DNA from: Chromatiales bacterium
Lineage (GTDB): Bacteria > Pseudomonadota > Gammaproteobacteria > Steroidobacterales > GCA-2729495
Length of the DNA: 64,000 nt
NCBI GenBank assembly: GCA_018699155.1
Contig: JABIQA010000109.1
Span: 1-64,000 of the forward strand
Reading direction: 5' to 3'
Of the stretch, positions 15,397-17,898 are shown piece after piece. The notes beneath the pieces are model-generated. The model worked only from the letters and a program-made list of their open reading frames with translations. It searched no databases and had not been told where the DNA came from. The translations under genes were made by a program, and so were the position numbers. The number at the start of each line of letters is the position of its first letter. Position 1 is the first letter of the stretch.

Positions 15397-15419
15397 TTTT
15401 GCCCCAAAATGGGGCAAAA
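15397..15419. repeat. Perfect inverted repeat, 9-bp arms
   Basis: TTTTGCCCC and GGGGCAAAA are separated by AAAAT. It is not followed by a T-run beyond the arm on either strand and lies far from any stop codon of an intact gene, so it looks more like an operator or cruciform-forming element than a terminator. Confidence 0.6.
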
Positions 15420-15460
15420 TACGCTGGACAACTGTCGTTGTTTACTTGGACATAGTCCAG

Positions 15461-15469
15461 TTATGCACA
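15461..15469 (+). promoter_or_regulatory. DnaA-box match (TTATGCACA)
   Basis: Exact match to the DnaA consensus TTATNCACA. It follows a 13-bp palindrome directly and lies about 170 bp before the DnaA-box group next to priA. A single 9-mer can occur by chance; the grouping makes it noteworthy. Confidence 0.45.
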
Positions 15470-15630
15470 TTCCCTGCGATGCACCAATTAATTAGGGCTG
15501 ATTGGACTAAGAGCCACTCACGATTACGCTTTAAACTATTGATTTAAATATAAAAGTTGTTATTGTTCATTTTTTAACCAAACTGACACAAATGTCCTGA
15601 TTGCGCGGGTAACTCCCTCCGTTTTCGGTT

Positions 15631-15665
15631 TCATCCACATACTTATCCACAGATTTTGTGGACAA
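15631..15665. promoter_or_regulatory. DnaA-box cluster upstream of priA
   Basis: Three 9-mers in 35 bp: TCATCCACA (15631, one mismatch), TTATCCACA (15643, exact strong consensus) and, on the minus strand, TTGTCCACA (15665 to 15657, one mismatch). The last two face each other across 5 bp. The group starts 78 bp and ends 43 bp before the priA ATG and is preceded by an AT-rich stretch. It could regulate priA through DnaA, titrate DnaA, or be part of an origin-like element; sequence alone does not decide. Confidence 0.55.
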
Positions 15666-15708
15666 CTTATGTCATGTCGGCTTTTTTTACAAAACGTTAG
15701 CAAAACTT

Positions 15709-17898
15709 ATGAACCCGACCATACTCCGTGTTGCACTCAAAGCGCCTTTGCATGAACTCTACGACTATCTCGCCCCGGCCGGTGGGCCCGAGCCCGTGGT
15801 CGGACAGCGGGTTAGTGTGCCGTTCGGACGCAGCGAACGGATTGGCATTATTGCGGCGCTTGCCACCACCACCCCTATTGCACCGGAACGCTTAAAGGCG
15901 GCCAAGCAGATTATTGACGCTGTACCGCTACTCGACAGACCGTTGGTCGAGCTGCTCAACTGGGCTGCCGCCTATTATCAGCACCCGCCGGGCGAAGTTT
16001 TTGCAGCAGCCTTGCCGGTAGCGCTGCGGAAAGGTCAGGAGGCCTTGGGCGCTAGCGAAGCGCGTTGGCGGATCACCGACAAGGGCAACGCCGCACTCGA
16101 TGCCTCAGCAATTAAAGCCCCGGTGCAAAAGCAGGTACTCCAGGCTCTTCAAAGCGGGGAGCACAACAGCACTGCCCTCGCTGCAGTTCATGACGGCTGG
16201 CAACGCGCCGTCCGCGAGCTGCAAAAGAAAACGTTCGTGGCAAAGTTCACCGCAGAACTGCCGAAGGTGCTGCCGCCAGATGTCCCATTAAAAACCGGAC
16301 CGCAGCTCAACGCCGACCAACAGCAAGCGGTGGATCAAATTACGCCAGCAAACAGCAAAACCTGGCTGCTTGATGGCGTGACCGGCAGCGGTAAAACCGA
16401 GGTTTACCTGCGCCTGATCGAACAACAGCTAGACGCTGGCAAACAGACACTGGTGGTAGTTCCTGAAATCGGATTGACCCCACAACTGGTCTCTCGCTTT
16501 CGGGAGCGACTTGCAGCCACTGTGGTCGTCATGCATTCAAATCTCAATGACACGGAACGCACACAAGCTTGGCTGGATGCCAGCGACGGCACAGCGGGCG
16601 TTATTATCGGCACTCGCTCAGCAATTTTTACCGCGCTCAACCAACCGGGACTGATTGTTATAGATGAAGAACACGATGCCTCTCTAAAGCAGCAAGAAGG
16701 CTTTCGCTACTCGGCCCGAGATCTGGCGGTGGTGCGAGGCAAGAAGTTAAAAATTCCGGTTATCCTCGGCTCGGCGACGCCGTCTTTTGAAACGCTGGCA
16801 AATGCCACTGTCGGACGCTATGAAAGACTGCGCTTACCCATCAGAGCCGGCGGTGCAAGCCAGCCAGAAGTTAACCTGATTGACCTGCAGCGTTATCCGG
16901 CAACTGACGGATTAACGCAGCCGATGATTGATGCCATCGGCCGACACCTCGGCAACAACGGACAGGTGCTCATCTATCTAAATCGTCGCGGTTTCGCGCC
17001 AACACTCTTTTGCAGTAACTGCTGCAGTTGCGTGGAATGCCGGCGTTGCGATGCACGTCTGGTGGTTCATCAACAGCGCAACCTGGCGGTCTGCCATCAC
17101 TGTGGATTCGAATCCCGTTTGCCTGATGTTTGCCCAGAGTGCAGCGGTGAGCTACTGCCCTTGGGGCAGGGTACAGAACGAATCGAAACAGCTATAAAGA
17201 ATTTATTTCCGGAAGAAACTATTGTCCGCCTTGATCGCGACTCAACGCGCCGCAAAGGCAGCATCGAACAACATCTTGAAATAATACGCGGCGGTCATGC
17301 GCGTATTTTACTTGGCACGCAGATGCTCACGAAAGGCCATGACTTCCCGAATGTGACCTTGGTCTGCGTGCTCGATGCGGATCAGGGGCTATTCGGCACC
17401 GACTTCCGCAGCGGTGAGCGACTGGCACAAAATTTTATTCAGGTCTCCGGGCGAGCAGGGCGGGCCGACCGCAGTGGAGAAGTCTGGATCCAAACCCTCT
17501 ACCCCGAGCATCCCCAGCTGCAGACCCTGCTCAACAAGGGTTACGCGGGCTACGCGGAAGAAGGGCTCGCCGAGCGGCAAGCAACTGCCTGGCCGCCTTA
17601 CAGTCATCTTGCCTTGCTGCGTGCAGAGAGCAGCAGCAAAGACACTCTCTATCAATTTCTAACCGCCGCACGTGGTCTTGCTGATCAAATTAACCCGGGC
17701 AGTGTGAGAATTCTCGGGCCGGCCAGCGCGCCAATGGAGCGGCGGTCGGGACGCTGGCGCGCACAAATATTGCTGCAGGCAGAGCATCGGCCGGCACTGC
17801 AGGCGCTGCTTACCTCATGGCGTCAGCATCTGGTGGAATCGTCGCTTTCGAGAAAGGCCCGCTGGTCGATCGACGTCGATCCAATCGAGCTTTTTTAG
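15709..17898 (+). CDS. priA: Primosomal replication-restart helicase PriA
   Basis: 729 residues from the ATG at 15709; the frame is open back to a GTG at 15658, but MNPTILRVALKAPL is the normal PriA start. Order: N-terminal 3' DNA-binding domain, helicase core with Walker A GVTGSGKT (223-230) and IDEEHDASLKQQEGFRYSAR, then the zinc region with eight cysteines (FCSNCCSCVECRRC and CHHCGFESRLPDVCPEC), and motifs V/VI (LLGTQMLTKGHDFPNVTLV, QVSGRAGRADRSGEV). It reloads the replisome at collapsed forks. DnaA-box-like sites lie just before it. Confidence 0.97.
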   Translation: MNPTILRVALKAPLHELYDYLAPAGGPEPVVGQRVSVPFGRSERIGIIAALATTTPIAPERLKAAKQIIDAVPLLDRPLVELLNWAAAYYQHPPGEVFAAALPVALRKGQEALGASEARWRITDKGNAALDASAIKAPVQKQVLQALQSGEHNSTALAAVHDGWQRAVRELQKKTFVAKFTAELPKVLPPDVPLKTGPQLNADQQQAVDQITPANSKTWLLDGVTGSGKTEVYLRLIEQQLDAGKQTLVVVPEIGLTPQLVSRFRERLAATVVVMHSNLNDTERTQAWLDASDGTAGVIIGTRSAIFTALNQPGLIVIDEEHDASLKQQEGFRYSARDLAVVRGKKLKIPVILGSATPSFETLANATVGRYERLRLPIRAGGASQPEVNLIDLQRYPATDGLTQPMIDAIGRHLGNNGQVLIYLNRRGFAPTLFCSNCCSCVECRRCDARLVVHQQRNLAVCHHCGFESRLPDVCPECSGELLPLGQGTERIETAIKNLFPEETIVRLDRDSTRRKGSIEQHLEIIRGGHARILLGTQMLTKGHDFPNVTLVCVLDADQGLFGTDFRSGERLAQNFIQVSGRAGRADRSGEVWIQTLYPEHPQLQTLLNKGYAGYAEEGLAERQATAWPPYSHLALLRAESSSKDTLYQFLTAARGLADQINPGSVRILGPASAPMERRSGRWRAQILLQAEHRPALQALLTSWRQHLVESSLSRKARWSIDVDPIELF

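Follow-up and report, generated by a model that had tools for sequence, protein, structure and literature searches.

Background

In Escherichia coli, ADP leaves the ADP-DnaA molecules that are arranged head-to-head on the DnaA boxes I and II. The control of DnaA by such DnaA-reactivating sequences (DARS) has been worked out mostly in this bacterium, in which DARS1 is located in the gap between bioD and uvrB and DARS2 in the rppH-mutH region. Both elements are defined by a core of three DnaA boxes that has equal spacing in DARS1 and DARS2 and in which box I is opposite in orientation to boxes II and III (PMC5742627; PMC8682772). Unlike the DARS, the E. coli element datA is reported to promote ATP hydrolysis by DnaA. 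According to a review, sequences resembling DARS1 and DARS2 are conserved in many proteobacteria (PMC10380432), and in Vibrio cholerae DARS-like sequences were found at uvrB and mutH, the positions that they occupy in E. coli (PMC6090056). In the following, we describe a DnaA box cluster upstream of priA in a Chromatiales bacterium that shares the three-box core of the DARS and is probably an element of this type.

Composition of the DnaA box cluster upstream of priA

The window analysed here is a stretch of DNA of 64,000 nucleotides. Upstream of priA, the sequence-only reading had described two exact and two near-matching DnaA boxes, two of which face each other across 5 bp, together with an AT-rich tract, and all of these features were recovered (Table 1), with box I being opposite in orientation to boxes III and II. 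The positions of the IHF site, the Fis site and the distal box were counted from the first base of box II. The AT-rich tract (positions 15531-15580; 16% GC vs 52% for the window) resolves into the predicted IHF and Fis sites, both of which are exact matches to the respective consensus sequence, and the complete element extends over about 205 bp (positions 15461-15665). The alignments with the PriA proteins of relatives begin at about residue 15-22 of the longer reading frame that starts with GTG at position 15658, near the ATG codon taken as the start of priA, and this alternative start would overlap box I.

Table 1. Features of the element upstream of priA and their positions in the window
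Feature	Position	Strand	Remarks
Distal DnaA box TTATGCACA	15461..15469	+	Exact match; -182 from box II
Predicted IHF site AATCAATAGTTTA (consensus WATCAANNNNTTR)	15532..15544	-	Exact consensus; -111 from box II
Predicted Fis site GTTCATTTTTTAACC (consensus GNNYANNNNNTRNNC)	15565..15579	+	Exact consensus; -78 from box II
Core DnaA box III TCATCCACA	15631..15639	+	One mismatch; precedes box II by 12 bp, the offset of both E. coli DARS cores
Core DnaA box II TTATCCACA	15643..15651	+	Exact match
Core DnaA box I TTGTCCACA	15657..15665	-	One mismatch; faces box II (head-to-head) with 5 bp in between, at the offset of both E. coli DARS cores
priA	15709..17898	+	Gene preceded by the element; start taken as the ATG at 15709

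Two further structures had been proposed in the same interval. A 23-bp inverted repeat with perfect 10-bp arms and a 3-nt loop is indeed present at positions 15397-15419; it is not intact in two sister genomes and is therefore considered to lie outside the element. The interpretation of this repeat as a terminator or RNA element was rejected, since it is not conserved and revealed no match in Rfam. A palindrome was also located, at positions 15481-15498, but it is weak, with 82% complementarity.

The three core boxes exhibit the spacing 9-3-9-5-9 along with the order and orientation of boxes III, II and I in DARS1 and DARS2, the cores of which contain 1+0+1 and 1+1+1 mismatches, respectively. 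A scan for this three-box core in the window and seven other stretches of the same genome (~132 kb) detected only the site upstream of priA and a site upstream of rpmE. The same scan of the relevant regions of E. coli K-12 yielded DARS1 and DARS2 and no match in datA.

A second copy of the element upstream of rpmE

A list of the DnaA boxes of the whole genome led to the second cluster, which has the same layout and is located upstream of rpmE, encoding the ribosomal protein L31 (contig C70:27377-27590). This full copy includes a distal box, an IHF-like site, a Fis consensus site and the core, with a distal spacing of 191 bp. The entire genome contains two cores and no match to the reversed control pattern, and the cores are located solely upstream of priA and rpmE and not at the mutH (DARS2) or uvrB (DARS1) position. 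Both copies point at their gene and the gap between rpmE and priA of E. coli contains no core; these findings do not support the idea that the rpmE copy remained from a formerly divergent arrangement of rpmE and priA, as it exists in E. coli. The genome also encodes DnaA as well as Fis, IHF-beta and Hda, the latter three being detected above curated cut-offs. Another DnaA box cluster (TTATCCACA on the minus strand, TTTTCCACA and TTATCCACA on the plus strand), which lacks a DARS core, was noticed on contig C3:1615-1786 in front of a gene encoding a protease of the degQ/htrA type.

Conservation of the element in Gammaproteobacteria

The regions upstream of priA from 19 relatives belonging to the same genus, family or order were compared with that of the window, giving a total of 20 copies; the identity of the PriA protein itself within the family amounts to only about 55% outside the genus. 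In 16 of these copies, a plus-strand box is followed by a gap of 178-183 bp and by a close match to TCCACA-3-TTATCCACA-5-TGTGGAYAA. The sequence-only reading had stated that a lack of conservation in close relatives would speak against it, and the boxes turned out to be conserved far above the controls. All 16 priA copies with a core contain the distal box, exact or with one mismatch, at -178 to -183, and 13 of the 14 rpmE copies contain an exact distal box at -188 to -202, the rpmE copy being as conserved as the priA copy, with a distal gap of 188-193 bp (202 bp in one case). An IHF site with at most one mismatch is present at -110 to -112 in 9 of 16 priA and 10 of 14 rpmE copies (local-shuffle means of 0.1 and 0.07), and an exact Fis site is present at -78 in 11 of 16 and 6 of 14 copies. 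Neither the IHF nor the Fis site played a part in the selection of the sequences, and the positions of the distal box, the IHF site and the Fis site are conserved independently of the core. The consensus-predicted IHF site is unrecognisable at its position in about 40% of the copies, and the Fis site is lacking in more, which speaks against the DARS2-like reading given below.

To determine the spread of the core, a pattern allowing up to three mismatches was applied, with the reversed pattern as control. Matches were obtained in 139 of 147 genomes of the order and in 156 of 185 genomes of the class (Gammaproteobacteria in the GTDB sense), with zero control matches in both sets. Among the 150 order matches listed, 43 are located upstream of priA, 68 upstream of rpmE and 39 elsewhere; 106 of the 111 matches linked to priA or rpmE are on the strand of the gene. 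When 60 loci that had been picked by the core alone were compared with control windows, an exact distal box was found at -205 to -170 in 20 of 30 and 20 of 28 loci (controls 0/1103 and 1/1088), an IHF site at -113 to -108 in 17 of 30 and 17 of 29 loci (controls 0.03-0.8%) and a Fis site at -79 to -77 in 17 of 30 and 8 of 30 loci (controls 0.3-0.4%). Since these sequences are related to one another, the numbers do not represent independent events. At the level of the phylum, the core pattern was detected in 67 of 120 genomes, comprising 26 of 30 genomes of the same class and 41 of 90 genomes of other classes. The latter matches, which are based on the core pattern only, are mostly from three families (f190, f194 and f198), with many other families yielding zero. 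By the core pattern alone, the genomes of family f190 often contain several DARS-like cores.

A scan of GTDB genomes for the distal box together with the core revealed hosts that include, among the matches listed, Woeseiaceae, Methylomonas, Thioalkalivibrio, Competibacteraceae, Duganella and Dechloromonas. The assignment of the class to the Gammaproteobacteria is based on these host names and on the presence of Fis, IHF and Hda of the E. coli type in the genome. For 80 loci from the matches listed, the IHF site is present at -109 to -112 in 57 cases, and 58 loci are located upstream of priA or rpmE. The distal spacing of these 80 loci falls into discrete groups of 176-178, 186-193 and 198-199 bp; the grouping near 177, 190 and 198-199 bp with none between is suggestive of helical-turn steps, although the priA copies of the window's family (178-183 bp) do not match these groups neatly. 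In several named genomes, the whole element is located between convergent genes. A distal box along with the core was also noticed on contig WQUQ01000244.1, which was assigned to a Desulfobulbus bin; this host is remote from all others that were named, and the contig may be misbinned. No full element was found in viral contigs.

Functional interpretation

The cluster upstream of priA is accepted as real, since the same boxes with the same spacing are present in most relatives, far above all controls. With a probability of about 0.72, we regard it as a DARS2-like, IHF- and Fis-dependent DnaA-reactivating element in which the order of the IHF and Fis sites is swapped, and as one of two paralogous copies located at priA and rpmE. 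The element contains the three-box core with the spacing of DARS1 and DARS2 and, beside it, predicted IHF and Fis sites that match the consensus exactly at conserved positions. The order of these sites relative to the core is swapped in comparison with E. coli, so the element is assigned to the DARS type and not considered an orthologue of DARS2.

By analogy with E. coli, ADP-DnaA would bind to boxes I, II and III, and the head-to-head boxes I and II would join two AAA+ domains, with the consequence that ADP leaves. The released apo-DnaA could then take up ATP. The bending of the DNA by IHF at -111 and Fis at -78 may allow DnaA on the distal box (-182/-191) to meet the core and may switch the site on and off with the cell cycle and the growth phase, whereby ATP-DnaA would build up before initiation. 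Protein binding, the release and exchange of ADP and the timing at this element are all deduced from the E. coli model in this scheme.

Alternative explanations

The number of boxes as such is weak evidence. Exact TTATNCACA boxes occur 60 times in the genome (2.24 Mb in 218 contigs), as compared with 45 matches of the reversed control. Two exact boxes are rare in a given stretch of 313 bp, in which about 0.008 boxes are expected, but about 0.5 such pairs are expected arithmetically somewhere in 2.24 Mb. The sequence-only reading had named a similar box density in intergenic DNA as a second refuting condition, and the density was examined over the genome as a whole. Although the box count is thus only mildly unusual genome-wide, a chance cluster within an AT-rich gap is refuted by the conservation data and the zero control matches, and its probability is negligible. 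A secondary or ancestral replication origin is very improbable, although DnaA boxes are combined here with sites for IHF and Fis and with an AT-rich stretch, as they are in oriC. The sequence-only reading had placed the true oriC to the right, and beyond the window the contig indeed carries dnaA and dnaN with a typical oriC cluster of TTATCCACA boxes and an AT-rich stretch in the gap between them (about 79.5-79.8 kb) and a further box in front of dnaA. No switch in the GC skew is seen at 15.5 kb, the element usually occurs in one or two copies per genome, and in single-contig relatives the distance of these copies from dnaA ranges from tens of kb to about 1 Mb. The site at priA, which is neither in the dnaA-dnaN nor in the gidA region, was therefore rejected as oriC. 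Neither an origin-like nor a titrating element, as originally suggested, is the best description, given that the three-box spacing and the fixed IHF and Fis sites point to a DnaA-reactivating sequence. Titration by box number was rejected as the main reading because the box density is ordinary genome-wide, and the four boxes of each copy provide a small capacity compared with the 60 exact boxes of the genome. Acting like datA, the element would bring the distal box to the core through an IHF-induced loop, so that ATP-DnaA oligomers form and hydrolyse ATP and the activity of DnaA is lowered after initiation; alternatively, it would do no more than titrate DnaA. A role of this kind is rather unlikely, yet it stays a candidate, since the order of distal box, IHF site and box is also the plan of datA, which has the opposite job, and the priA copy is located 64 kb from oriC. 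The core that defines the DARS in the literature is missing from datA, the published minimal form of which also has nothing that corresponds to the conserved Fis site.

The linkage to priA and rpmE (111 of the 150 order matches listed, nearly always in one orientation) could mean that DnaA, IHF and Fis regulate the promoters of these genes and thereby tie restart and ribosome genes to the state of replication. Beyond the distal box, at a distance of 204-245 bp on the upstream side of box II, a TTGAC motif is common to the priA copies of 12 of the 13 relatives that do not belong to the genus; the rpmE copies lack it at this position. This motif is a possible -35 element of priA, in which case the element would be part of the leader of this gene and priA may be transcribed through the site. 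The DARS1 region of E. coli also serves a promoter, since it overlaps uvrBp3 and DnaA represses uvrB (PMC6015884), and read-through transcription lowers the binding of IHF at datA (PMC10950094); both observations make a coupling plausible. However, the internal spacing is fixed and common to the priA and rpmE copies, whereas the distance to the gene varies from -7 to 95 bp for priA and from 68 to 364 bp for rpmE. This variation and the elements between convergent genes argue against a promoter function as the main job of the element, and at the convergent sites a promoter role is unlikely. Transcriptional control as the principal function is accordingly judged slightly less probable than a datA-like role, and a regulatory side effect is compatible with a DARS. 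The proposal that the cluster controls or adjoins priA holds insofar as the element lies next to this gene, but it is not specific to priA in view of the rpmE copy and the convergent-gene sites.

Implications

The recurrence of the element upstream of priA and rpmE suggests where much of the class Gammaproteobacteria keeps a cell-cycle switch that is known mainly from E. coli. If the sites are DARS, most Gammaproteobacteria carry them at predictable addresses, so that small deletions could serve to test DnaA recharging in many different lineages. The swapped order of the IHF and Fis sites provides a natural test of the geometry that the reaction needs, and the location at priA and rpmE suggests that the timing of replication may be linked to fork restart and ribosome production, which could be tested. 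More tentatively, the element may be an ancestral, class-wide DnaA switch with a fixed architecture of distal box, IHF site, Fis site and core, kept in two copies, one in the leader of priA and the other in that of rpmE. Transcription of both genes through the site would then time the binding of IHF and DnaA and connect the supply of ribosomes and the restart of forks with DnaA recharging, and DARS1 and DARS2 of E. coli would be a relocated and rearranged derivative and not the type.

Comparison with DARS1, DARS2 and datA of E. coli

The locations at priA and rpmE and the -78/-111/-182 architecture appear to be undescribed in the literature searched, in which no paper mentions them, with the proviso that the 2009 source paper on DARS may list them. 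DARS1 shares the core with the priA and rpmE element but needs neither IHF nor Fis, and no IHF consensus within one mismatch was found near its core. The layout of distal box, IHF site and box II is similar to that of datA, in which two boxes of the same direction flank an IHF site, with a spacing of 182 or 191 bp vs about 162 bp in datA, where a facing box is located next to the second box; unlike the element, datA contains no DARS core and, in its published minimal region, no Fis site.

The closest likeness is with DARS2, the three-box core of which is identical in spacing and orientation. DARS2 also carries its IHF and Fis consensus sites on the side of the core that they occupy here, and an extra box with the full consensus is located at about 190 bp from box II (PMC8682772, PMC4245941). 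In the same analysis, the IHF-like sites of E. coli DARS2 were placed at -99 and -83, followed by the Fis consensus at -137 and by box V at -197. In the priA and rpmE element, the IHF site is located at -111 and the Fis site at -78, resulting in the order core-Fis-IHF-distal box vs core-IHF-Fis-box V in DARS2, and the distal box at -182 or -191 has the same orientation as box II, whereas box V of DARS2 is opposite to it; both differences argue against the DARS2-like reading. Moreover, DARS2 belongs to the rppH-mutH region, whereas the element described here precedes priA or rpmE.
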